A DNA stretch of 39,406 bases from a virus. Within the stretch, counting starts at the first letter, position 1. Each line of letters starts with the position of its first letter. Under the pieces are notes generated by a model. That model had not been told where the DNA came from. It saw only the letters and a program-made list of their open reading frames with translations, and searched no databases. Both the position numbers and the translations under genes were made by a program. Shown piece by piece: positions 1 to 25,700 of this stretch. The stretch is from positions 1 through 39,406 of the IMG/VR virus record IMGVR_UViG_3300031269_000034; one strand, 5' to 3'.

Positions 1-492
1 CTTGAAACGATCGAATTTGCAAACAATCAACAAAGCCTCGCCGAAAAGTTTGCTCTCCTAGAAAATAATCCAGCAACCAATCTTTACGACATGATCACCT
101 ATGACGACGAGTTTGGAGATCACGATCTCCTTGTGCTCAAACCCGCGTCTTCTCGAGATTCGTGGACACGTTATGGTGATCTTCTCGACGCTTATACTTG
201 GGAAGCACAATGCGCTGCCTCAGGCAACGACCTCTGCCAGACGTGCTGGATGCCCATTCCTACGCCACTTTACCCCTATGTGGGTTTGATGCGACCCAAT
301 GCAGATGAGCCTCTCGGGATCGAAAAGTATTGGGGGCCCTTCCACTCTGACGAAGAAGAGCAAAAAGAAAAGATTCCATGGGCGCCCTGGCACCTATGGT
401 TTCTCCTGCGCGCCGTCTTCGACCTCACCAACGAACAGACCACCCAGGCTTTTCTGTCATTGCGTCCGGGCGTTTACCGCTATTGGAGCTGA
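1..492 (+). CDS. Hypothetical protein, 5' end outside the window
   Basis: The reading frame is open from the first base of the window, with no stop upstream of the first Met codon at 91. The true start is therefore probably outside, and 163 residues are visible. The visible part is acidic and rich in Trp and Pro, with a Cys pair in NDLCQTCW and a Trp-rich stretch PWAPWHLWF near the C-terminus. No signal peptide or transmembrane segment is visible. The next gene starts three bases after its stop (TGA TCC ATG), so the two are probably translated from one message. I do not recognise the family. An alternative start at 91 would give 133 residues. Confidence 0.6.
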   Translation, partial: LETIEFANNQQSLAEKFALLENNPATNLYDMITYDDEFGDHDLLVLKPASSRDSWTRYGDLLDAYTWEAQCAASGNDLCQTCWMPIPTPLYPYVGLMRPNADEPLGIEKYWGPFHSDEEEQKEKIPWAPWHLWFLLRAVFDLTNEQTTQAFLSLRPGVYRYWS

Positions 493-495
493 TCC

Positions 496-765
496 ATGAA
501 CGACTTCATCTCTCTTCCCGGCCGCATTCTTCTGCGGGCATCTGGCGTCTTCAAGCAGGCCGATTTGTTTGGTTACAATGGTCGAATATTCGCCAAATAT
601 GGCCAAGGGTATATTGGTATCTCTTCCAACGGTGACACTTCCAAGCGCGGTGTCATGTGGACAGATCTCGAGCTCGATGTCGATTTCCATTTTCACATAG
701 GCAAGCTGGTTCTCGGAAGAGAGCTATTATCGCCAGGCAGTCGCAAAAGCTTAATTCATAGCTAA
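496..765 (+). CDS. Hypothetical small protein
   Basis: An 89-residue protein whose ATG lies three bases after the stop of the preceding gene, which suggests translational coupling; no strong ribosome-binding site of its own is visible. The sequence has alternating hydrophobic and polar residues (GRIFAKYGQGYIGISSNGD, then a His/Phe-rich DVDFHFHIG), compatible with a small beta-rich fold. No catalytic motif, signal peptide or membrane helix is seen. It is part of the packed row of small phage genes at the left edge. No family recognised. Confidence 0.6.
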   Translation: MNDFISLPGRILLRASGVFKQADLFGYNGRIFAKYGQGYIGISSNGDTSKRGVMWTDLELDVDFHFHIGKLVLGRELLSPGSRKSLIHS

Positions 766-827
766 TCCATGCAACTTTCACGTTGCCGTGGCTTCGGCCC
801 CAGCCCTTTATCCCAACGGAGAACACG

Positions 828-1247
828 ATGCCTGATTATTCTGACCTTGAGACGCTGGACGTGACGTTTTGTGAACTTCCCAGAAAAACGCAAAAGCGGC
901 TGGTAGTTGCTTGCTATGTGGACAAGAGAACCGTGGAGATTTACGGGGTCGGCGGCTGGCAAGAATTATCAAACCCGCAATTTTTTCTTAGTACAGCCTA
1001 CCGCCTCACGCCTTTGCCCAATCCCGCATTGACGCCTGACAGCATCAACTGGAGTCACGTCGCGCAGGGTTTAGACTACTGCGCGCGGGATAAGGGTGGT
1101 GCGGCATATCTTTCTCAAGATCTCCCAACGATAGCTTCTCACACATGGTGCGCCGCCCCCCACGTACGCGCCGATGCGTTTACTTCTTACCGCCCCGGCA
1201 CTGTTGATTGGCGCGACAGCCTTATCACCCGACCCGGAAAGGAATGA
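828..1247 (+). CDS. Hypothetical protein
   Basis: A 139-residue protein. The frame is open further upstream to a TTG at 783, but the ATG at 828 is preceded at a good distance by GGAG (818-821), so 828 is preferred. The N-terminal half has the pattern of a small beta-strand domain (LDVTFCELPRKTQKRLVVACYV); the C-terminal half has scattered Cys, Trp and His without a recognisable metal motif. It ends three bases before the next gene. No family recognised; function unknown. Confidence 0.6.
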   Translation: MPDYSDLETLDVTFCELPRKTQKRLVVACYVDKRTVEIYGVGGWQELSNPQFFLSTAYRLTPLPNPALTPDSINWSHVAQGLDYCARDKGGAAYLSQDLPTIASHTWCAAPHVRADAFTSYRPGTVDWRDSLITRPGKE

Positions 1248-1250
1248 CCA

Positions 1251-1718
1251 ATGACCCTTCCCAGCACCGCTCGTATAACGCTCGACCGACTAGCAGACGC
1301 TTGTGACCAACAGCGCGTCATCTTTCAGGAGCTTTTCCCAAATGGATTTGAAGCGACAAGCGAGGCTGAATGCGTCTCTGCTGCCCGCAAACATGCGTCC
1401 GACTTTATCTGGGGGTGGGCTGCGTCAAGGCTATTAACTGGCCCGGCGAGGAAAGCCTACAAGGCAGCCGAGCGCTCAGCTTGGGAAGCCTATGAGGCAG
1501 CCGATCGCTCGGCGTTGGATGCCTATGAAGATGCCACGTACTCAGCTTGGGAAGCCTACAAAGATTCTATGCACTCGGCTCGGGGAGCCCACGAAGATGC
1601 CGTGTACTCGGCTCGGGGAGCCTATGAAGCAGCCGAGCGCGTGGCGCTGAAAATCTACAAATCAGCCTGCGCTGAAGCCTTTGGGCGCGCGTTTTGGACA
1701 CAGGAGAGTACGCAATGA
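1251..1718 (+). CDS. Hendecad-repeat protein A (tyrosine every 11 residues)
   Basis: A 155-residue protein, paralogous to the next gene. Both share an N-terminal domain of about 65 residues (ARITLDRL, then a FPNGFEATS core, then AASRLLTGP) and a C-terminal block resembling YKSxCAxAFxRAFWxQE. Between them lies a helical repeat with aromatic residues at Tyr70, Tyr81, Tyr92, Tyr103, His114, Tyr125 and Tyr136, exactly 11 residues apart. The middle repeats are net acidic (units like AWEAYEAADRS). An 11-residue period is three turns of a helix, typical of hendecad coiled coils. The start has an upstream AAGGAATG context and follows the previous stop by three bases; the stop overlaps the next start (ATGA). 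Function unknown; a helical assembly or binding role is inferred only from the repeat. Confidence 0.7.
   Translation: MTLPSTARITLDRLADACDQQRVIFQELFPNGFEATSEAECVSAARKHASDFIWGWAASRLLTGPARKAYKAAERSAWEAYEAADRSALDAYEDATYSAWEAYKDSMHSARGAHEDAVYSARGAYEAAERVALKIYKSACAEAFGRAFWTQESTQ
1458..1660 (+). repeat. 33-nt coding repeats in hendecad protein A
   Basis: Imperfect 33-nt units encode the 11-residue repeats of the protein. Two neighbouring units around 1575-1640 are close to identical at the DNA level (shared core GCTCGGGGAGCC followed by a Tyr or His codon). This suggests recent unit duplication or slippage. Confidence 0.7.
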
Positions 1719-2137
1719 CCGCCCGTATAACGCTCGACCGACTAGAAGGCGTCTGCAAACAACAGCGCCTCAAGTTTCAGGAGATCTTCCCGAACGGCTT
1801 TGAAGCGACAAGTCAAGCTGAGTGCATCGCCGTTGCCCGCGAACATGTGCTTGCTTTTGACTGGGATTTGGCTGCGTCGAGGCTATTAACTGGCCCAGAG
1901 CGTAAAGACTACATATCAGTAGAGGCCTCAGCGTGGGAGGTCTACGACGCAGCCAAGCGCCAAGCGAGGAAAACCTACAAAGATGCCAAGCGCAAATCGC
2001 AGGAAGATTACGAAAATGCCAAGCGCCAAGCGCGGAAAGATTATGAAAATGCCAAGCGCCCGGTGATGAAAGCCTACAAATCAGTTTGCGCTGACGCTTT
2101 TGCGAGGGCGTTTTGGGCGCAGGAGACCAAGCTATGA
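1715..2137 (+). CDS. Hendecad-repeat protein B, paralogue of the preceding gene
   Basis: A 140-residue protein. The ATG at 1715 overlaps the stop of its paralogue (ATGA), with GGAG a few bases upstream; a start 21 bases further upstream is less likely. It shares the N-terminal domain (ARITLDRL, FPNGFEATS, AASRLLTGP) and the C-terminal block with the preceding gene. Tyrosines fall at 66, 77, 88, 99, 110 and 121, again every 11 residues. Its repeats are strongly basic (units like AKRQARKDYEN), the opposite of the acidic middle of the paralogue. This suggests, as inference, that the two proteins pair through oppositely charged helices. No known family recognised. The genes clearly arose by tandem duplication and then diverged in the repeat region. 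Confidence 0.7.
   Translation: MTARITLDRLEGVCKQQRLKFQEIFPNGFEATSQAECIAVAREHVLAFDWDLAASRLLTGPERKDYISVEASAWEVYDAAKRQARKTYKDAKRKSQEDYENAKRQARKDYENAKRPVMKAYKSVCADAFARAFWAQETKL
1910..2077 (+). repeat. 33-nt coding repeats in hendecad protein B
   Basis: Tandem 33-nt units encode the basic 11-residue repeats. Units near 2010 and 2043 share a nearly identical core (GAAAATGCCAAGCGCC). The period equals that in the paralogue, but the encoded charge is reversed. Confidence 0.7.
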
Positions 2138-2883
2138 TGAAATTATCCGACCTTCTCGATCTATGGGCCACTGACGAGGGCAAGCCCTACAAAGAGTCGC
2201 TGATCGACATGGACGCTTGGGAGTCGAACCCTGACGACATTGGCTGCATGTGCGCGCAAGGTCAGGTTCTGCACCTTTTGGGCGGATGGACCCCGGAACA
2301 GCTGGACAAAACAATCCAATATGAGGCGGACAGAAAAACCGCCGAGCTGTTGAACATCAGCCGTGCTCATGCCGTCTTGTTGCGTCAAATCAACGATAGC
2401 GCCGAAGGCGCCCCGGCCATTGTTTTGACTGACCCCAGTAAGGTTCTTGGTGAAAATTGGTCAACAGTCCTCGATTTCTGGTACGCGCTGGACAAGCCCC
2501 AACCTACCACAGGGAAAGACGCACTAGCCGCCGCAAGGGAAGCTGCATGGGAAGTTGTAGGGAAAAATGCATGGGATGAAGCACTGGCCGCCGCAAAAGA
2601 AGTTGCAGGAGCCTCCGCAAAGGAAGCTGCAGGAGCCACCGCAGAGGAAGATGCATGGGAAGCTGCATGGGGCGCCGCATGGGGCTATGCAGGGGAAGTT
2701 TCACTATATACTGCATGGGCCTCCGCAGGTGGATCCAACGAAATTCAAGCAGCCAAAATCTTCCGCCGCGACGGTAGGGCTTTCTACTTCCTGCCTCTGT
2801 TTGGTTTCGCCACCCCAGAAGATATCCCCGCGCGACCTGATGACTACGGGGTGGAATTATACTCACAGAAGAACACGCTATGA
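2134..2883 (+). CDS. Ala/Trp-rich repeat protein
   Basis: A 249-residue protein starting at tandem ATG codons (2134, 2137), overlapping the previous stop, with AGGAG near 2121. Residues 1-125 look like a globular helical domain (LLDLWATDEGKPY near the start). Residues 129-199 are a low-complexity helix rich in Ala, Glu, Gly and Trp (for example EAAWGAAWG). All six Trp residues there (139, 147, 175, 179, 183, 195) fall in one register modulo 4. Residues 205-249 form a C-terminal tail with RRDGRAFYFLPLFGF. Similar Ala/Trp repeats are known in uncharacterised phage proteins, but I cannot assign a function. It probably belongs with the two repeat genes before it. Confidence 0.7.
   Translation: MMKLSDLLDLWATDEGKPYKESLIDMDAWESNPDDIGCMCAQGQVLHLLGGWTPEQLDKTIQYEADRKTAELLNISRAHAVLLRQINDSAEGAPAIVLTDPSKVLGENWSTVLDFWYALDKPQPTTGKDALAAAREAAWEVVGKNAWDEALAAAKEVAGASAKEAAGATAEEDAWEAAWGAAWGYAGEVSLYTAWASAGGSNEIQAAKIFRRDGRAFYFLPLFGFATPEDIPARPDDYGVELYSQKNTL
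2518..2730 (+). repeat. Short-period Ala/Trp coding repeat
   Basis: GC-rich, low-complexity DNA with recurring GAAGCTGCA and GCCTCCGCA units encodes the 4-residue periodic helix of the enclosing gene. Trp codons recur at multiples of 12 nt. Confidence 0.6.
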
Positions 2884-2946
2884 TCGCCGGCGCATTGGTG
2901 ATCACCTCTGTGCTTCTTTAACAGAATCAAGGAAAGTTCCAGTAAT

Positions 2947-3210
2947 ATGGCAATGACTCAAGACAAAGCCCGTGCGCTGATGGCGCGTGTCGACGCTGCT
3001 CTGCTCAAGATGAAAGACGATACTGACTTGGAACCAGTAGCCATTAACTGGGGTGACATATCGTCTCGAGATGTCATCGAAGAGCGTAGCGTCCTAGACG
3101 GCATCTCGATCTTTTATGTCCATGTCGAAGAAGCGTCTCCAGAAGCTGCATATAGCATCTGGAACTACATGGGCCGGCCTGACGATCTCAACATCCGAAC
3201 CGAATGGTGA
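2947..3210 (+). CDS. Hypothetical small protein
   Basis: An 87-residue acidic protein. The ATG at 2947 has a purine-rich AAGGAAAG about ten bases upstream, and a 63-base gap separates it from the preceding gene. The N-terminal part is an amphipathic helix (KARALMARVDAALLKMKDD), followed by a mixed segment with SIFYVHVEE. No catalytic motif or membrane segment is present. The next gene begins a few bases after its stop. No family recognised. Confidence 0.55.
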   Translation: MAMTQDKARALMARVDAALLKMKDDTDLEPVAINWGDISSRDVIEERSVLDGISIFYVHVEEASPEAAYSIWNYMGRPDDLNIRTEW

Positions 3211-3214
3211 CGTC

Positions 3215-3505
3215 ATGGCTCTCTACCACATGCACTCAGACGTCCTCGGTGGCTTCTACCAGAGCGATGTCTTCGTTTACGCTCACAGCACCCCTGACGC
3301 CATCGACCGAGCCAGGAAGGCTTATGAGACCTGGCTCAAAAACGATGGCTTCATGAAGGTCGTAGATCAAGACCACTGGGTCGTTTTACCTGATGAACCC
3401 GGCTTCAAGATTGCCCTTGAGACGCAAATTCTGCGCTTTGTCAAAGAGCTTGAAACCAAACTTAAAGTCGTGACCGAGAACGCTATGATTATGTATTCGA
3501 TCTGA
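3215..3505 (+). CDS. Hypothetical small protein
   Basis: A 96-residue protein. The frame is open further upstream inside the previous gene, but the ATG at 3215 starts just after that gene's stop and fits the packed layout. The sequence reads as an alpha/beta domain: MALYHMHSDVLGGFYQ, then VFVYAHSTPDAIDRARKAY, then a C-terminal helix LRFVKELETKLKVV. Its stop is followed by TCC, as in several genes here. No family recognised. Confidence 0.55.
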   Translation: MALYHMHSDVLGGFYQSDVFVYAHSTPDAIDRARKAYETWLKNDGFMKVVDQDHWVVLPDEPGFKIALETQILRFVKELETKLKVVTENAMIMYSI

Positions 3506-3585
3506 TCCACCCCACTTAAAGGCTGGATATGGTTTTCGGATCATGCCTATATCAGGCCACCATCATATCAGAGCAGGTCAAAAAA

Positions 3586-3786
3586 ATGCCCTTGGATCAA
3601 GTCGACGAAGCCCAGATTATCCAGGAAACCCACATCAGTGCAGCTCTTTCAAATCGAAACAAGTTGACAATCCCGTTCTCGGGACGCTGCATGTGCTGCG
3701 ACGAACCAGTCGATCAACGTCGCTTCTGCGACGCCGACTGTCGGATTTCCTATGAAAAGGAACTGATTCGAACTTCTCGTATCTAA
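3586..3786 (+). CDS. DksA/TraR-type C4 zinc-finger protein
   Basis: A 66-residue protein. Its C-terminal half has the arrangement CxxC then CxxxC, visible as CMCCDEPVDQRRFC and CDADCRISYE. This matches the C4 zinc finger of small phage and plasmid DksA/TraR-like proteins. The N-terminal helix (LDQVDEAQIIQETHISAAL) fits the short helical arm of that family. The frame is open to an ATG at 3529 (85 residues), but 3586 gives the family's usual length and has GAGCAGG upstream. Family members bind the secondary channel of bacterial RNA polymerase and change promoter response. Whether this short version does so is inference. It lies directly upstream of the helicase gene. Confidence 0.7.
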   Translation: MPLDQVDEAQIIQETHISAALSNRNKLTIPFSGRCMCCDEPVDQRRFCDADCRISYEKELIRTSRI

Positions 3787-3841
3787 TCCAGCACTGGATC
3801 CAAACTCATCATCCCCACACACCTCAAGGATCCCCAACCCC

Positions 3842-5167
3842 ATGAACCAGACCATTGCAGAAACTACCGATTATCTTTCCGATTTGAACCCTGGACAGCG
3901 CCTTGCTGCCGAGAAGATTCGCCGCTTTCTACTCAGCCGAGACAAGGAATTCGTTCTTTCTGGAGCCGGCGGCACCGGCAAGACTTACTTGACCGAGAAA
4001 ATTATCAAAGATGTTCTTCCCCAAGCCAAGCAGGTTGCCAAGCTAATGGGCAACACGCTGCCTGACTGGGATGTCTGCCTCACCGCCACGACCAACAAGG
4101 CAGCTACTGTTCTCGCGTCAGCTACAGGCCGAACCGCGGGCACCATCCATTCCCACATCTCCGTCAAGCCCTACACGGACTACCAGACCGGACAAGTGAA
4201 GCTGAGCCCACGCAAGAACGTCTGGCGTGTTCTTTCCAATCAGTTGATATTCTGTGACGAAGCCTCGATGATCGAAACCTCTCTCCTGAGCTGGATCCGC
4301 AAGAGCACCGACGACAGCTGTAAGATCATCTTCATGGGCGACCACTGCCAGATGGATCCCATCGGGGAATCTTTCTCGCCTGTCTTCAGCAACCCAAAGA
4401 ACTTCGCCGTCCTCGACCAGCCCATGCGCAATTCCGGGCAGCCCGCTTTGATCCGCCTCTGCGCCCAGATGCGCCATGCCGTCGAGCATGACGAATTCTT
4501 CCCCATTCCCTCCGTTCCAGGCGTGATTGATCACCTAAACGCCTCACAAGCTCAGGCCGAAGTCGAATCCCACTTTGCCACAGAGCGAGAATATTCCCGA
4601 ATACTGGCCTACACCAATGATCGTGTGAACTACTACAACGACTTCATTCGACCTCTTCGCGGCCGACCTGACCGCTTGGTCAAAGGGGAATGCGTCATCA
4701 ACAACTCCATGGTTCAATTCAAGAATAGTATTCTTCATCCAGAGATGGAACTCAAAATCATCAATGTTGATGAGCGGCCTTTCGTGATTTATTTCTCACG
4801 CTCTAAAAACCCAGTCAAACTCGAATGCTATTCCGTTTCCTTGGAGTCAGAATGCAAAGATCGCTACAACAATGTAAGCGTTCCTGTGAACAGGATAGAT
4901 TACAAGAATGCTCTCAACGTCCTCAAAGGAAAAAAAGACTGGGCGTCTTATTACTATCTCAAGGAGAGCATTCCCGATCTTCGTCCCCGAGATTCTGCCA
5001 CTGTCTATAAAGCACAAGGATCTACCTATGATACCGTTTATGTGGATCTCCAAGATCTTAGCAAATCTCAGACACGTCTTCACCTGGCGCGTATGCTCTA
5101 TGTCGCCGTTTCCAGAGCACGCCAACGCGTTGCTTTCTTCGGTGAGCTCCCGAACCACATCTACTGA
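3842..5167 (+). CDS. SF1 DNA helicase, Dda/RecD-like
   Basis: A 441-residue superfamily 1 helicase. Visible motifs in order are: Q-motif-like NPGQRLAAE (16-24), Walker A GAGGTGKT (41-48), Walker B LIFCDEASM (around 137-143), motif III MGDHCQMDPIG (around 165), motif V TVYKAQGSTYDTVYVDL (around 388-404) and motif VI LYVAVSRARQ (around 420). This set matches the T4 Dda/RecD group of 5'-3' helicases. Length equals that of Dda. It probably unwinds DNA at phage forks. N4-like phages carry a helicase of this type upstream of the DNA polymerase, which fits this position. AAGGA lies a little over ten bases before the start. The next small gene follows after 13 bases. Confidence 0.92.
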   Translation: MNQTIAETTDYLSDLNPGQRLAAEKIRRFLLSRDKEFVLSGAGGTGKTYLTEKIIKDVLPQAKQVAKLMGNTLPDWDVCLTATTNKAATVLASATGRTAGTIHSHISVKPYTDYQTGQVKLSPRKNVWRVLSNQLIFCDEASMIETSLLSWIRKSTDDSCKIIFMGDHCQMDPIGESFSPVFSNPKNFAVLDQPMRNSGQPALIRLCAQMRHAVEHDEFFPIPSVPGVIDHLNASQAQAEVESHFATEREYSRILAYTNDRVNYYNDFIRPLRGRPDRLVKGECVINNSMVQFKNSILHPEMELKIINVDERPFVIYFSRSKNPVKLECYSVSLESECKDRYNNVSVPVNRIDYKNALNVLKGKKDWASYYYLKESIPDLRPRDSATVYKAQGSTYDTVYVDLQDLSKSQTRLHLARMLYVAVSRARQRVAFFGELPNHIY

Positions 5168-5180
5168 GAAAGAGAATTCT

Positions 5181-5417
5181 ATGGTCGATATCTCATCCAT
5201 GTTTGAAATGGATCGCATCGATGATCCGGAAATGGAAATCGAGCATTATCTGGCTGAATTATCTAACGTGATTATCGACAAGTCGATATCTGAAGACAAC
5301 GACTTGATTTTTGGTTTTAATATAAGTAACGCAGTTGCCGTTCGCATGGCTGAACTCATTCTGACTGGTCTCGATCTTGAAGCCGACATGCGTCGTGAAA
5401 ACAAAAAGAAGCTTTGA
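5181..5417 (+). CDS. Hypothetical acidic small protein
   Basis: A 78-residue acidic protein following the helicase gene by 13 bases. The frame extends upstream inside the helicase gene, but the ATG at 5181, with the purine-rich GAAAGAGA upstream, is the natural start. It is mostly helical (VAVRMAELILTGLDLEADMRREN). Its stop overlaps the next start as TGATG, so the two are translationally coupled. No family recognised. Confidence 0.55.
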   Translation: MVDISSMFEMDRIDDPEMEIEHYLAELSNVIIDKSISEDNDLIFGFNISNAVAVRMAELILTGLDLEADMRRENKKKL

Positions 5418-5689
5418 TGACTTCCCATATCACGGTCAAGACGACTCAGGTCTCTCCTTACATCACTCGTCAGGAGCATGTTCTTGCTTCTGCTATTGTG
5501 GATGACGAGTGGTATCCCATGACCAAGAAACCTCGCTCATGGTCAGATCTCGTTGTCCGAATTGCTGATGGCACCGAATACTCTCGTCTCTTTTCAGATG
5601 GTGAACGTGAGATCCGAGAAGTCTTCAACATGACCCTCATCAAAACCAAACTCAATCTCGAAGGGGCAGTCTGGAGGTATGAAACATGA
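5417..5689 (+). CDS. Hypothetical small protein
   Basis: A 90-residue protein whose ATG overlaps the previous stop (TGATG) and whose stop overlaps the next start (ATGA). This makes three genes in a coupled chain. The pattern is mixed alpha/beta: HITVKTTQVSPYITRQEHV, DDEWYPMTKKP, then FSDGEREIREVFNMTL. No motif recognised. The tight overlap on both sides is the best evidence that it is real. Confidence 0.55.
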   Translation: MTSHITVKTTQVSPYITRQEHVLASAIVDDEWYPMTKKPRSWSDLVVRIADGTEYSRLFSDGEREIREVFNMTLIKTKLNLEGAVWRYET

Positions 5690-6018
5690 GCGGCTTCCAC
5701 AATTCGACAAATGAGGTCCGCATCCAGAAGATAATCGAGATTCTGGCTCTGCTCGAGAAATCAGCCGCGTCTAACAAGGCCACCCAGGAAGAATGGTGGG
5801 AGCTCCTGGCGCCCGTTGTGAACGCGATCCAATCCATCCTGGACCCGGAGGCCCGTCCAACCCAAGAGACCTCTCCTGAGCCTACTCCTGTTGCTTCCCA
5901 GAGTCGGGAAGATACTCTTCATGCTCTGGGCCCTGAGCTTAACGACATACTTAATGCCTTGAACGATGAAGCTTATGCTGACGCTCACGACGTTCTAATT
6001 CGTCTTCTCGGATCCTGA
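5686..6018 (+). CDS. Hypothetical protein with Pro/Thr linker
   Basis: A 110-residue protein, coupled to the preceding gene by an ATGA overlap. An N-terminal helical segment (IQKIIEILALLEKSAAS, then EEWWELLAPVVNAI) is joined by a Pro/Thr/Ser/Glu linker (residues about 57-72) to a C-terminal helix ELNDILNALNDEAYADAHD. Two small helical domains with a flexible linker suggest an adaptor or interaction role, but this is inference. No family recognised. Confidence 0.55.
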   Translation: MSGFHNSTNEVRIQKIIEILALLEKSAASNKATQEEWWELLAPVVNAIQSILDPEARPTQETSPEPTPVASQSREDTLHALGPELNDILNALNDEAYADAHDVLIRLLGS

Positions 6019-6047
6019 CCCAACCTCACTCAGCAGAAAGACTTATC

Positions 6048-6362
6048 ATGACAAGTGAAGAACAAATCGAAATGCAGATTCAAGCCGCCGGTAAAATCGC
6101 TCCCAGAGTGACCAGTAATTTGATCAACAATACTATTGTTGATGAAGATTATCACAACTTTCCTGGCACCAGCTTGACAATCTGTGCGCTTACTTTGCGC
6201 AATGGCTTTGTCGTCACCGGTGAAAGTGCTTCAGCTTCGATCGATAACTTCGATCCTGAAATCGGACGCCGCATCGCTCGAGACAATGCTCGCCATAAGA
6301 TCTGGGCACTTGAAAGCTATCTCCTTCGTGAAAGCCTCTTTCAACAATCCCTTCTAGAATAG
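6048..6362 (+). CDS. N4 Gp49/Sf6 gene 66 family protein
   Basis: A 104-residue protein with the hallmark segment of the phage N4 Gp49/Sf6 gp66 family: TICALTLRNGFVVTGES, then NFDPEIGRRIARDNA, then KIWALESYLL. The length is normal for the family. The role is unknown; it is a common accessory protein of tailed phages and is also found in prophages. A purine-rich AGAAAG lies upstream of the ATG. Here it sits in the packed small-gene run just before the DNA polymerase. Family recognition is from the conserved motif, not from a search. Confidence 0.85.
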   Translation: MTSEEQIEMQIQAAGKIAPRVTSNLINNTIVDEDYHNFPGTSLTICALTLRNGFVVTGESASASIDNFDPEIGRRIARDNARHKIWALESYLLRESLFQQSLLE

Positions 6363-6371
6363 GACATCCCC

Positions 6372-6881
6372 ATGCGCCCGATTGACATCAAGCCGATGAT
6401 GAGCTTCACTCCAATCGTTCATCAGCTTATCGAGGAAGAAAGAGTTGGTATTAACAACTCGATTGGGCGCCTGGTCAACGACAACTCTAACAAAGGGGGT
6501 CATCCAGACGCCTATCGCTATGACGGCAAAATCTGGAGCGAAAAGGCGCCGCATCATCTTCGTGGAGCCAGGATCCTCCAGATCGATCCTGTCCTAGAGC
6601 GACAGGCAGCTGCAATCTCTCACAGAACCGCGCGAATCAAGACCGACGCCGTTCTACTCAAGCATGCTCTTTCTACCGTCTCGGTTCGTTGCACCAATCG
6701 TCAGCAGCTCCGTGATGTTCTTCCCGACTGTCTCGTGCGCCGCATCGACGTTCTTGCTAACCTTAATCGGACAAACTCTGTCGGATACATCTTCGAAGGT
6801 GATGTCGCTCTTCAGAAGCAATTCTCAGACGCCGTGGTTATCGCTCTGCGGCTGGAAAGCAATCGACTAATCAACGTTTAA
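6372..6881 (+). CDS. Conserved hypothetical protein upstream of the DNA polymerase
   Basis: A 169-residue basic protein starting nine bases after the previous gene, with AGGA close upstream. It is helical throughout, with an Asn/Gly-rich turn (NDNSNKGGHPDAYRYDGK) near residue 40 and many Arg in the C-terminal half (VRCTNRQQLRDVLPDCLVRRID). It ends 17 bases before the DNA polymerase gene, the place where N4 has a small gene of unknown function (gp38), so it may be its counterpart by position. No catalytic motif seen. Confidence 0.6.
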   Translation: MRPIDIKPMMSFTPIVHQLIEEERVGINNSIGRLVNDNSNKGGHPDAYRYDGKIWSEKAPHHLRGARILQIDPVLERQAAAISHRTARIKTDAVLLKHALSTVSVRCTNRQQLRDVLPDCLVRRIDVLANLNRTNSVGYIFEGDVALQKQFSDAVVIALRLESNRLINV

Positions 6882-16716: not shown

Positions 16717-19700
16717 TTAGTTCGTGGCGTTGATCCATGGGTTCAGACCCGGACCCGAGAAAAGCATATTCAAGCCTAGGGAGTAGCCTGCCCGACCATC
16801 TGCTATCACCGACGCAGCGTTGTCCGTCATAGGAGAGCCCACGTTTATACCGGGTATGTTGGGCCCCCAAGGCATGCCCAAGCTAAGCAACATGGCTCGC
16901 ACAGGGTTGTCTCGCATCATTCTGTGAGCAACTTTAATCGAGCGCAGCTTGTAGGCCCAGAACCATGCCAGACCCATACTCTCCGCATAGTTGCGGACCC
17001 GACCTGGCAGTAGGTTGTAGTTCACAAACTCCTCAGTGATCTCTTCCATAGCTTCGTTTGAGGACTTGTTTTTCTGCTGAGTCAGATGATCGTAGAGCAC
17101 CGCCTTGGCCAGGAAGTCTCCATACTGCACTGCCCGGCTCATTCCCTGAAACAGGGCTGTGTCCCGTGTCACCATCGCGTAGCGTCCCACGGTGCCCAGC
17201 TTGGCCGGTATCCGGTCAGCCAGGTTCGTTAGATACTCTGCAAGATTTCCCTGACTGATCGCTGCATCCGCATCCGTCAGGCCCTCAGAAATCGTAGAAA
17301 ACTCTCCTGCTTCTACTAGATCCCAGATCGACATCCGGCGATCGGCCTCGTCAAGGCTACGCTCTTCGGCTTCCAGCTGTCTCAATTGGCTCAAGTCGTT
17401 CTTGGCCCGAGCATAAGATTTCTTTGCATCCAACTCTGCCCTGCGAGATTGGTGCTTAAGGAACTGATCAATTTCGACCAGCTTGTCTCGAAAGCCTTTC
17501 ACGACCATGCGCATAGGCACACCTCGCACCGCCAGCTGAATAACATTACTCACCAAGTTTGCGGCCGGTACGATCACAGAGCGGATGACGATCGTCGATT
17601 TGACCACACTCACGCCCGCTTGCCAGAAGCGCTCTGTTCTCACCAGCTCTCTGTAGAAACCAGTTCCGAACACTAGCTCGGCTGCGTCCTTGACGCTTTT
17701 TACTGTCTTCTCATCCAGATTAGAGGTGCCGTCCCAGATCGCTCCTACCGACATCATCCGATATCCCAGCGTGTTGTCGATCAAATCCCGGCGCACCATA
17801 AAACCATCTTCTCCGAACCTGCTCCGGATGTACTGCTTGGTCTCACGAGGGATCATCTTCCAGCTGCTCTCCCAAGCCTTGTCTTCTTGGCGAGCATCCG
17901 AGTCCGACAGATCGACATATCCATCTTTTCTGTTTTTCGACTTCGCTTCCTTCCAGAGCTCATAAGACCGATCAATCAGCTTGCGATTGAACCCTTCTGC
18001 CATTGCCTCTTCCGACTGCCGACCTTTCCAAGCACCGATCATGTCAGCAAGGTTCCGGTTCTGATCCAGGTACTTCGTGACCTCTGGATCCATAGATCGC
18101 TCGTATCCCACAATCAGGCCTGATCCATCGAAGACCGGCAGCAAAGACTGACCTTGATTACCTCGGCCCCTGGAGATGTCGTTCTGGATCCTCAGGAACG
18201 CCTCGTCAGAGATCCTGCCACCAGTTCGGACCACACCTGCATCGAGCGTCTGACCGGTCCTGACGTCGACCCCAAACGCCGTCTTCTGGACAGTCTGCAT
18301 GATTCCCTGGACGTAGGTGCCCGGTGATCCCACTGACGAGTGGTAATAGGCTCTCTGGCCTTTCTCTAGGCCTTTACCGCTGCCTCCGTCATACTCGGCC
18401 ACTTGGACGAAGCCTCTACGCAGCATGGTCGCGTGAGAGCGCTTGTCAGCCACCTCGATCCGGGCGCCCTCTGGGCTCTCGGCCGGGATGTATCCTTTCC
18501 AGCCGTTCAACTTTGCTTCACCCGTGCTGGCTTTGCGCATCTCGTCACTGCGAAGATCCGACAAATAGGCAATCGAATACTCGACCCCCGATCCTTCGGT
18601 CTCGTAGAGCTCTTTCAGACGAGTACTCAGCTCGGGCTTTTCCCAGGCCTGAACCTCGATTGCGTAGAGCGAAACCAGTCTGTCTATCCTCTCGACGACT
18701 TTCCGCTCTTTATCACTCAGAGGGACGTTGGCGCTGGATTTCTCTTGGCCGGTATTCCTTGGAGAAGCCAATCTCCAGATCGCTTCGGCATTGCGCAGAA
18801 GTCTGTGATTGCCCTTGCGCACGTTACCCGTGGCCAGAAGCACAGCCAAATCTTTAGCCGCTGCATCCCATGCGGCAAACTCGCTCGGAGCCATTGCATC
18901 TTTCTGAAGCGCCTTCTTGTGGTTATTGATCGACTTTTTCCGCTTTCCGTCATTTCGGAGTATTTCCAGAATCTGGTCAACCCGCATCACAGATCTCAGG
19001 GCCGCCACATCTACCTGTGCCAGACCTTCAAACAAGTCTTGCCAGCCCTGCTTCTTGATGTCGGTCTTGAACTGACGTGCCAGCTCTTCGGGCAATCGCT
19101 CGCGGTATTCCTGACGCACCGACGACACGGCGTATTTCACGCGGTTCATCAGCTCCAGAACCGAACGCCGGCTATCCGTCATACCCAGCACTTCGTTCAT
19201 GATTGACCAAGCCGTCTTTGGCACCAATCCACCCATGAACCCGTTCCAGTTACCATCCTCAACTTTCCGGGCCTGGCTTTCGTTGCCATAAGAGACAGCA
19301 GCATCCGCCATGGCCCGGCCTTGGTCTTTACTCATAAGAGAGCCAACAAGTGTCATGGATCCAGAGATTAGGATACTCGTTTCTTTCTTAATGCGACCGG
19401 TCTCTTCTTGACGTCTGGCATCAGAGATTGTCTGACCCAAGCGAACCAACTTGTCTCCATACTCCGACAGAACACCTGTAGCTTTACCATCAACCCATTC
19501 CATGGCGTTCAGGGTTTTCTTCTCAATCTCTGAGCGCGTGTCTCTTTCGATCGAGGACAGAGCACCCGCAATCATATCCAAAGCCTCATCTGCCCGGTTC
19601 GCCCGACTGGTGATTCGATCCGACAACGCATCCATGCTCTTCCGGCCAAGGCTTTCCAAACGCCTGTCCAACGAAGAAGAGTCATATTGCGCAGATTTGG

Positions 19701-22700
19701 GCTTCTCCATCCCGGCCAGCACAGCACGGAATTGAGGGTCAATTTGGCTCAAAGCAACAAATGCCGGGATGATCATCGACCTCCCCAAGTTGTCGGCCAC
19801 AATACCTGTTCCAGGGTCCGCAGCTGCCGGCGCCTCTTTGCCCAGCAGAAGGTTGTATCGCTCCTGGGCCCGGGTCATGTCAGGGCTTCCGGCCTCGGCA
19901 TCAGGATCCTCCTGGAAGTCCCGTGCCGAGAGATTCTTGACCACATGATTGTAGAGACGCGTGGCTTGGGTCATCGACCTTGCATCCATCTCCATGGATC
20001 CCGCCATCGCAGCCACGATTGTCTGGAACGTTTTACGATCGCTATGCGACCAATCATAAACGTGCCCAAATCCAAACAGCGCTCTTTTAGCTTTTTCGTA
20101 AAGCTTATCAGACTGCTCATTTTCCGTGAGCTCTGTATTCGCCCACTGTCTTGCTCTCAAATGACGGCCAATCCTTTGTTCAAATCGTTCCCGGATTGCC
20201 TCAACACGGCGACCGTCTTCCTGTGGATAGTTCGACCTGTCAGCCTGATCCAGAACAGCTGTGGCGCTACTTTCGAAAGCTGATCCAGACTGCTCCAGCT
20301 GCACTATTGCCGCGGTGTTCCACTGGATGTTTCCAAACAGATCCAGCGAAGCTTTTGCAGGCAGCCCCAGCAGACGACGAAGTCCTTTCAGAGCGCTGTC
20401 CACAAGGGTCGCCAGCTTTGACCGCGTGCGCGTCTTCTTCAATACCTGGATCAGGTTCTGGTTGGTCAGGGTCCAGGCGATGAACTCCTGGATCCCCCGG
20501 GCCCAACCTGCGCCTTTCGTGCCAGACGCATCTTTTGACAACGCCTGACGGATTTCATCCTGAAGACCTCGAGCAGCTTCTGCCACTGGCCGGGCTTCTC
20601 CTTCGAACTGGAGATCCAGGAACTGAGACATCAGAGCATCCAGGTTCTCGACGGCGTTTTTTTGGACGTCCTGAAGCTGGTCCGCATTCGAGGCATATGC
20701 GTAGATGGTGGCTGCCGTTGCCGCGTGCAGCATCTCATGCAACAGCGTCTCGCGGGTGAGATTGGAGATGTAGAGGATCCCGTTCTCAAGATCAGTCTGA
20801 CCCATCTGAATAGGTCTTCCCGGGCTACCGTCCGGCTTCGGATAATGACGATCCCTCCAGCTTTCCAGCTCTTCCTGCGTTCCCATAACGACGTTCCACT
20901 TTCCGAACGCTGCACTCAAACGGTTCGAAAGTGCATTGGCCAGATTTCTTTGCTCTGGAGACGTGTTCGATGGATCTCGGCTGTCGATATCAAGAAGAGC
21001 CATCAAAACAACAGAGTTGATTTTGCGCACACCTGTTGTGCCATCATCAGTCTCACCTTCCTGAAGGGGCTCAGCTGGTCTTGCGTAAGCCCGAATCTCC
21101 CTCGCAAACTCCTCGTTGCTGCCTGTTTCAGGGGTTTCCTGCACCGCGTCGCCAAGCTCTTCCCGAACCCGGCCAAGATCCTTCTCGATCTTCGTCTGGG
21201 CTTTCTCAAAGCGCCAGTTCATCTCTGCCACCAGTGCTTCGTCGTCCCCTTGCGGCACGGCGATCAGGTCTGCTTCCGTCCCGTAGTTCGCCGGGCTCTC
21301 TGCCGAGGCCATCTGATCCATAGAGAAGCCCATGCTCGCCAGCACATCTCTTCGGGCCTGTGCTCCTCTAGAAGACAGCTCCAGCTCTGCAGACAGATCC
21401 GTGACGCCTTCAAGTACACGCGTGCGAAGCTCTTCGTCTGTTTCATTATCTACACGGCCTTCACCCTGTGCCTCCGCGATCTTTTCAATCGTTTCGACAC
21501 TAAGGCCTTCAAGAACGTCGCCGTCCTTGTTTTGACGGATCCAGTCCGCGAAGCTGTCTGCCGCATCCCGCAAAGGGTTTTGGAAGATCGTTTCGATAAC
21601 GGCTTCGTTCATCGCCTCGGAGACAGTGTCGATCTCGTCAGCCGCAATTTCTTGGCCGTCATAGACCTGAAGTCCCCTCAGCGAGACTTTCTGGCCGGCA
21701 TAGTAATTGACCATCATCATCGCGTCTCCGCGCGAAATCGTCAGCATCGGCATCGCCGACACACCGGCCAGACTCGGGGTTCGCTCTGTACCTTTGCCTC
21801 CGAAAGTCGAATTCAGCGACCGGGAATAGATCTTGTTTCCGCGGCTGTTTTCGAGATCCGACAGGTTGATGTGATGCAGATCTTCAACCCCACCTTCGAC
21901 GGTTTCAATCACAGCTCCGAACTTCGCCATCTTTTTAAAGACGGCGTCGTAGTCTCGCTTCGACAGCGTGTCTCCTTCTTTGAGCTCTCCCACAGCCAGC
22001 TTCTCAGCAATCATGCGATCGACCTCAGACTTGAACCGAGCCTTGAACACCAATGACTGCGTCTGCGTGGCAACCTGCACCCGCTCCATGACGCGCTGAA
22101 CGCCCAGCGTCGTTTCAGCGATTGCTTCGGTCATCGGACCCACAAGGCTGTGCAGGATGTTCTCCGTAATCATTGACATGTGACGACCGTCGAGCTCAAA
22201 CCTTTTTAAGCTCTCAACATCCCTTCTCAGGGTAGGTGCATTGGAGAAGCTTAATCTTTTGTCTGTAGCCGTCAGTTCTCGTCCCAGGCGCTGCTGGTAG
22301 GACTTCTCCATAGGGCTGTTCTTCACAACCTTAGTAACGTTGTAGGTTCCCTTTCTCCTGTTGAACGTGATCCTCTGCGTCGACAGGGCAACAATATCTT
22401 TCCAGAGACCATCGTAGTAATCCGGGAATATTGCCCGAATGTGGTCATTGGTCATAGGCACTTCTGCCTGTTCAAGCTCCTGCATAGTCTTTGCAAACTC
22501 GCTCAGTCTTTGACCCAAGACATCCGCCATAGCCGACGCAATCTTACCTGCAATCCCTGTCTCACCGGATCCATAGATCGTGATTGTCAACGGGTTCTTC
22601 AGGACCGATCGGCCGATGATGAGTTTGCCTCCTTCAATTTCTAGATCGCCTAAGGTCGTCAGCACTCTGTAAACTCGATCAAACTGCTCGATCGGCAATG

Positions 22701-25700
22701 CAGTGTCAGAGTTTTTACGTTCCGTTGTCAGCCTCATAATGGCGGCAACAGCATCTTTCTTTTCTTGGGTCAGGTTTGACGAGGTTTGGTAAAGATCTCC
22801 GTCTAAGTCACCCGTCTCCGGTCCCAGTTGTGAGTTCAGTGTTTTACCTAGAACGTTCGGAAAGAAGCCACCTTTGCGCAGCATTTTAAGCTGCTTCTTC
22901 GAGAACCTACTGTCGAGAAACATCATCATCGCCATGAACGGGCCGTTGGTTTTGCCATCAGCTTCAAGGCTCAGATCTGTACTGAAGTTTTTGAACTCTT
23001 TGCTGTCTCTTCCATAGTTTTCAAGAACATAGTCATATTTGCCCACTGACATTAGCGCGTGCAAAAGCTTGTCGCTCACTACTTCTCCGAGACTAGTTCC
23101 CATCTCAGTCTTGATGGCGTCGATTTCTTCAGGGCTCATGGTGTCAATTTTTCCAAACTCAAACACTTCTCCTGCCATGTGAGAAAACATCTCTATAGTG
23201 TTTGGGTATTTGGATCTGATTTTTTCAATCGTCTCTTTTACAGCCACGCGCCTGCGCTTTAGCTCAGGCTTAGTTACATCCGCAGACTGACCTACGGTCA
23301 GCCAAAAAGCCTGAGATCCTTTCACAGTGCTCAGATCCAAGGTGCCTCGTGTGGCTATCATCGCTTCGCGCATCGCCTTGTCGGCCTGGGGATTGTGGCC
23401 TCGCATCATGATCCGGCCATTACGCGCCTGGACGAAGTCAAAATAGGTCGGCACCTCGTTTGGGATTATTTCTGTAACAGCTGAAAAAAGAGCCACCATT
23501 TTGTCATGTTCCATAGTCCTGTCATAGGACATCTCAAGCGTACGGTTCTTACCTTCAATCGAAGCCAGGTGGCGCACGTTGGTGATGGCCTTGTCGATTT
23601 GTTTCCAGCCACGCAGCTCTAGCCAGGCGTCTCGGCCCAGGGCGTTCATAAGGCCCAACATTAGAGGGTTGCGATAGAATACGGTGTCCCTGTGCTTCTC
23701 GATCGCTCGGTCCGTTTTGGATCCAAGCACACCCAGCAGGTTCCCCTTCTGAGTGCGATACTTACGCGGCGGCTTAGATCCGATGCCAACAGGTTCTTCA
23801 GGCTCAATCAGCATTGCCCGGCCCAGGAACCGGCGTCCGGCACCCATGCTCTTTACAAGCTCACGCGTGCTCTCATGCCCTAGCTTGACGACAGAACGCT
23901 CGCTGGTCCCTGTCTCCGACGATTGATCAGGGATCAATCCGTTGATCTTCGTGATCAGACGACCATCCATCACGTCGAGAAGATCAGCCGCTAGGCTTTC
24001 GCTGATGCCTCGAACCATGTTGGACGGGATCTCAGTGTTGCGCTGTGCGCCCCAGAACTGCTCAATGTGGCGCGCAAGGTTCTCTTTGGCGGTGGTTCCG
24101 TTGAACCCCTGCATCGACAGCGCCATCACTGACGCGTCCACCAGCTCTGTCGGAATGCCCCAATCCTTACCAATTTTCTCGGCGTCGGTTTCAGTGATCG
24201 TCTCAGCTGTCAGCGCCCAGTCGACAGCTGCCAAAACACCGGCTTCCAAAAACCGGGGCAGGTAATCCTTGGTCACGGGATCCACCAGATGCAAAGCAAA
24301 TGCCGACTGGAACTTATGAAACGGCACACCCTTCCTGCTCTTCGCCGTCAGTGCTTCAATAGGTGTCAGTTTTCTATTTAGATTTTTTGGGTCGCTCCAG
24401 ATTTTAGTCGGCTTTTTGAGACGGCCTCTCATCTCCTGAAGAAGATCCTGCGTCAGCATCTGAAATCCATTTGCCAGATCATTCGCATGACCCTGATCCA
24501 AAAACATTCCGATCTTGGTGTCAGGGAACATTTCTTTCAGGGCGTCGTTCCGCTTGGTCCACTGCCGCAAGAGACCTATCACTGCACTTGCTGGTTTGGC
24601 TGCACGGATGGCGATAGAGCGAGACGGATCGAACGAGAAGGCACGACCTAGATATCCCTCGAAGCCCTTGCTGACATCGTTTCCAATCTGCGCCCGTGTC
24701 TCTTCCAAAGGGTCGACAGAAGAGATCACATCCGAGACATCTACGTTCTCCTCGACGGCCTCGGCTTGTTGGGCTTCAGGGGCCCCATCCACTCCAACCG
24801 TCCCAGAGCGATTTCCCGACACGCCTCTGTTTTCGGTGTCTGTGGGTCCAGCTTCTTGAGGATCTCGTACTTCGCCCTCTTCCAAACGGCTCTCGTTGAT
24901 TTCCACGGCAGACGCCGTTCCGATAAACGATTCAGCATCCTGTTCCGCGCTCGTCTCAACAGTTGCCGTTTCCGCTTCTGTTCCGATTTGGTCTTCATAG
25001 TCGATCAACGAGTCCTTGGTCTTGGCTACAGCGTCTTTACGAATACGCCGTTCAGGAGGGGTCGGCCGCTCCCCTGAATAGCTGGCCAGGCCCTCATCGA
25101 GCCCCAATTCCTTTGCTTCCTTTTCGCTCAATTCAGTATCTTGAATCCTTTCTTCGGTCGGGTTCGCTTCCTGGGATTCCCGCAGCTGCTGCTCTGCGCT
25201 TTGAGTAGTTTCCTCAACTCGGTCATTGGCATTTCGGGTAGAGGCCCGCTCCAGCACCGGCTTGATGTCCTCAAAGGTCATCGCCTGCATCTCAGGCAAG
25301 CTTGCAGCCAGCTTGCGATAGAGCCCCTGCATTGTCCGGGCGTCGATCTCGACTTCCCGCGCAAACAAACGTCCGTTCTCTGAGTTTGGGTTTACGAAAG
25401 CCTTGCCCGCATTCTTGTGACTTGCCGGTATCATCGAACGACCAGTCCAGGTTGCAAACGACACTTGGTTGTTGTCGCCACGACCCATGGCCGCGGATTC
25501 CCGGGCAGCTTCCACCTTGTTGGTAAAGTGCTGCACGAAATTCCCAAGCACGTCCATTCGCTGCTGCGCCAGCAGCGTGTCACCTTGATCCAAGGCCTGA
25601 AGGATGCCTGCAACGTGCTGGCTCGCTCCCATCTGGCCTTTCAGATCTGCATGCTCGTTCCGGCCTGTTTCCAGGATCTGATTCCGAATAATGTCTATGC

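Follow-up and report, generated by a model that had tools for sequence, protein, structure and literature searches.

The HExxH motif in the virion RNA polymerase of an N4-like phage fragment is very probably the active site of the described C1 metallopeptidase domain

The link between the virion RNA polymerase (vRNAP) of phage N4 and metallopeptidases is not new. Iyer et al. (2017) assigned residues 2130-2448 of the N4 protein to the zincin metallopeptidase (MPTase) superfamily. The assignment was made by profile-profile comparison, and the relation to lethal-factor-type enzymes was found by HHpred (PMC5512222). N4-like RNA polymerases are there described as always (elsewhere: almost always) fused to an MPTase. 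The same work sorts the MPTases of phage polyvalent proteins into 12 clades, and describes cases with more than one zincin per protein. The roles discussed there are self-processing, either in the head or after injection, and targeting of the host (PMC5512222).

A 2021 review shows the MPTase for N4 and Cbunavirus (PMC8472413). Bellis et al. (2025) then provided a cryo-EM structure of N4 gp50, in which the C1 domain spans residues 2124-2375 and carries a 'conserved HExxH motif' (PMC12633501). The C-terminal domain (CTD) is said there to autoinhibit transcription, and proteolysis is not assigned. At least one phage record labels the whole vRNAP 'metallopeptidase'. The N4 vRNAP literature cited here reports no peptidase activity, zinc content or substrate for C1.

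The DNA analysed here, called the window below, is the whole stretch of 39,406 bases. It encodes a giant protein that matches PHROG 2206, 'virion RNA polymerase', over residues 49-3762 with E=0. Pfam finds three N4 vRNAP domains in all, including N4_RNAP_helical and vRNAP_dom. Neighbouring genes match major head protein, structural, primase, DNA polymerase and SSB families. A giant protein with N4 polymerase domains, the C-terminal region and virion genes as neighbours is what marks an N4-type vRNAP of the Schitoviridae, and the window is a fragment of an uncultivated N4-like phage. The features of the vRNAP gene are collected in Table 1.

Table 1 Features of the vRNAP gene in the window.
Feature	Position	Strand	Basis
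vRNAP (virion RNA polymerase, N4 gp50 homologue), 3763 aa	16717..28008	-	PHROG 2206 and Pfam
Single-subunit (T7-like) RNA polymerase domain, ~aa 1122-2279	21172..24645	-	Pfam PF21867, PF21894, PF21769 at aa 1434-2234; polymerase alignment
C1 zincin-like metallopeptidase domain, ~aa 2320-2571	20296..21051	-	Homology to N4 gp50 C1 2124-2375, AlphaFold2, Foldseek
HEMLH, aa 2424-2428: putative zinc ligands H2424 and H2428, putative general base E2425	20725..20739	-	Invariance
E2508, putative third zinc ligand in QEFIAW	20485..20487	-	Invariance; helix 2500-2515 in the model
C2 domain, ~aa 2600-3763; large and helical in N4	16720..20211	-	Identity to other vRNAPs

A first-pass annotation of this DNA had pointed out an HExxH motif, HEMLH, in the vRNAP, and translation of the open reading frame places it exactly as claimed. 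The protein has no other HExxH. The sequence around it reads LTRETLLHEMLHAAT (20760-20716, minus strand). The candidate third ligand lies in IQEFIAWTLTN, residues 2506-2516.

The C1 domain of N4 gp50 (PDB 9pnr, 9pnt and others) occupies the equivalent place between polymerase and C2. Its HELVH and NEFMAW stand in register with HEMLH and QEFIAW of the window. The two proteins do differ: identity within C1 is about 25%, the N4 protein has 3500 residues against 3763, and the window has QEF where N is usual before the Glu. Like the polyvalent-protein MPTases, for which N4 vRNAP was a starting example, the window C1 is of zincin type, pairing an HEXXH with a Glu that lies on the conserved helix after it (PMC5512222). 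Compared with these MPTases, nothing was found that marks it as a new class.

The same annotation held that N4 vRNAP is not usually described as a fusion of injected polymerase and protease. This is mistaken, as the motif or the fusion is already present in all three publications (PMC5512222, PMC8472413, PMC12633501). With the domain described in 2017 and its structure solved in 2025, the motif is ordinary here, and the finding is the rediscovery of a described, family-wide feature. Few positions anywhere in the vRNAP are as constrained as the four site residues.

How constrained they are can be seen from the relatives. Viral contigs were gathered by their polymerase domain, and separately by their C2 domain, so that the motif itself was no selection criterion. 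One set of 95 loci consists of the window, 14 loci from named phages and 80 contigs selected by polymerase. A C1 profile matched in 83 of them, and every one of these 83 has the HExxH. The remaining 12 comprise seven cuts at contig ends, four divergent named phages and one true absence (L074). A divergent HExxH...E was found after the polymerase in Pseudomonas ZC03, Vibrio 2.130.O, pVa5 and PJN101, beyond the reach of the first C1 profile. A scan of genome contigs with the C1 domain returned three relatives only.

Several candidates for a vRNAP lacking HExxH were dropped. L016, L037, L051, L053, L061, L064 and L078 are truncated at contig ends. In L020 the frame is broken just after the motif. 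Among 150 C1 profile matches, HE..H is missing from a single one, a fragment with a broken frame.

In an alignment of 94 non-redundant C1 domains, exactly four columns are invariant: H2424, E2425, H2428 and E2508. The HE..H was required of every row in this alignment, whereas rows were admitted regardless of the third Glu. Nor do these four residues vary in any of 82 divergent full-length vRNAPs, and loci picked by polymerase or by C2 agree. The vRNAPs of N4, Achromobacter Axy10, Rhizobium X2_28B and Pseudomonas Zuri are 25-28% identical to that of the window, and both their HExxH and their downstream Glu align with it in register. Conservation in other schitovirus vRNAPs, a check that the annotation had asked for, is family-wide, with L074 as the one true absence. 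Its choice of E2508 as candidate third ligand was also the right one: this Glu is invariant in 94 of 94 domains and sits on the next conserved helix of the model. The distance from the first His to this Glu varies from 67 to 93 residues over the 94 domains, and is 84 in the window. The residue before it is N in 87 of the 94 (NEFxAW in the family).

An AlphaFold2 model of C1, made from the 94-row alignment, has a mean pLDDT of 86.2 and a pTM of 0.84. It predicts a helix at 2351-2367 followed by three short strands (2372-2375, 2403-2406 and 2411-2414). The HExxH helix then covers 2419-2444, and the putative third ligand lies on a helix at 2500-2515. This is the zincin topology, with the HExxH on one helix and E2508 on the following conserved one. 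In the order of its elements, the model also corresponds to a three-stranded sheet and N-terminal helix ahead of two C-terminal helices.

Foldseek searches with the model gave N4 gp50 as top PDB match (9pnr, E 4.8e-6). Among natural proteins, those ranked next are lethal-factor-type zincin metalloproteases; these matches are weak (E around 0.2, probability at most 0.75) and agree with the published HHpred link (PMC5512222). Structurally, the model also matches other phage polyvalent proteins.

Pfam says less. A scan of the entire window vRNAP detected no metallopeptidase domain, and none of the curated Pfam metallopeptidase models scored above cut-off on the window C1 (SprT-like: E 0.14, 12.5 bits versus 25.6). 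No Pfam model for the C1 clade turned up. Over the 94 C1 members there are weak signals, with the HExxH family SprT-like first (39 of 94) and Tox-MPTase4 and Peptidase_M91 among the next.

What identifies C1 is its sequence and conservation, the fold predicted for it, its homology to the N4 domain of known structure, and the earlier description. HEMLH is very probably the active site of C1, a metallopeptidase domain of the zincin type with Glu as third ligand, found between polymerase and C2 in nearly every Schitoviridae vRNAP. This degree of confidence applies to what C1 is; what it does is graded separately below. The earlier reading of HExxH...E as the zincin type known from phage polyvalent proteins is borne out by the topology of the model and by the earlier classification of the homologous region of N4. 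As read from the sequence, C1 would bind zinc and would act as a peptidase. One zinc ion would be held by H2424, H2428 and E2508, with E2425 activating the attacking water.

As to role, the peptidase would pass through the tail together with the polymerase and, after ejection, act in trans on a protein of the host or of the ejectosome. This is the most likely role for C1, put forward tentatively and at somewhat less than an even chance. A co-delivered protease of this kind might disable a host or envelope factor within the first minutes of infection, as opposed to processing vRNAP itself. That would fit with some lineages adding a second zincin and one being able to lose C1; we consider it possible, if doubtful.

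C1 could instead be directed at its own vRNAP, which it would cut either within the head or once ejected, freeing the polymerase or other modules. Self-processing of polyvalent proteins was suggested by Iyer et al., who cite P1 DdrB as one that is processed (PMC5512222). In N4 a flexible linker adjoins C1 (PMC12633501), and given that the N4 CTD inhibits the polymerase, its removal would activate transcription. Against this, N4 vRNAP is packaged without processing (PMC5512222), and full-length recombinant gp50 was purified without degradation (PMC12633501). Over the 82 full-length vRNAPs, the linker between polymerase and C1 is among the least conserved stretches, and no motif-like island was found in it. 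Finally, the vRNAP of L074 still has polymerase and C2 in one frame with C1 absent. Together these observations weaken the suggestion, made in the first-pass annotation, that C1 cleaves the giant protein to release the polymerase, and they favour action on another protein after ejection. Self-processing is accordingly judged unlikely. A conditional, one-off form of it following ejection would be the next choice after a trans-acting peptidase, with a similarly low probability.

The site might also hold a metal without any proteolysis, as a structural zinc or in other HExxH chemistry. The N4 structure paper points out that HExxH occurs in alpha-ketoglutarate hydroxylases too (PMC12633501), and protease activity of C1 is undocumented in the cited literature. 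Yet the general-base Glu is invariant along with the ligands, a constraint not needed by a purely structural site and one that argues for catalysis; four site residues forming the only invariant columns is the pattern of selected catalysis. The predicted topology is that described for zincins (PMC5512222), and HExxH folds of the alpha-ketoglutarate hydroxylase kind have no match among the PDB hits listed. A non-proteolytic site is therefore quite improbable.

About 0.03 HExxH motifs are expected by chance given the composition of the window vRNAP, and the invariance of the four site residues indicates that the HExxH...E is not accidental; a chance motif in an unrelated helix is as good as ruled out by the family-wide invariance and the modelled fold.

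The one vRNAP without C1 deserves a closer description. In L074 (IMGVR_UViG_3300049933_000037, 1-6633) the polymerase and C2 are joined in frame by about 28 residues, compared with about 321 at this place in the window. It is the single true absence among about 107 distinct long vRNAPs. Among open reading frames with both polymerase and C2, C1 is absent only in this contig (seen as L074 and L179), three divergent Vibrio phages aside. C1 is therefore not strictly required everywhere, and L074 offers a natural comparison for what C1 is for. The contig starts inside the vRNAP gene, and the part of the gene that is cut off may encode an N-terminal zincin; the C1 profile, run over the full record without a positive control, found no zincin. 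A wider search for relatives of L074 lacking C1 returned only the contig itself and one fragment that starts inside C2.

The C2 domain matched more phage records (456) than the polymerase domain did (240). Conservation over the last 200 residues of C2 is among the highest in the vRNAP. The window C2 is 26-36% identical to that of four other vRNAPs.

A second HExxH precedes the polymerase in several vRNAPs, and in many of these a Glu follows it, as in a zincin. These include L006, L008, L012, L165, L171 and others, roseophages among them. In L006, the closest relative of the window, it is HELAH at 1040. The second zincins of EE36phi1 and Roseovarius Plymouth podovirus 1 resemble the window C1 in having HExxH and then a downstream E, but they precede the polymerase. 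The window vRNAP has no such zincin; its region N-terminal to the polymerase contains no HExxH, only a poorly conserved linker.

A different arrangement is seen in L238, which was dropped as a candidate for a vRNAP without HExxH. It keeps its HESIH (at 2229), and its C1, within residues 2143-2657 of the open reading frame, is split by a second, inserted zincin-like HExxH domain (HETIH at 2405). The insertion lies between the HExxH helix and the third-ligand helix of C1.
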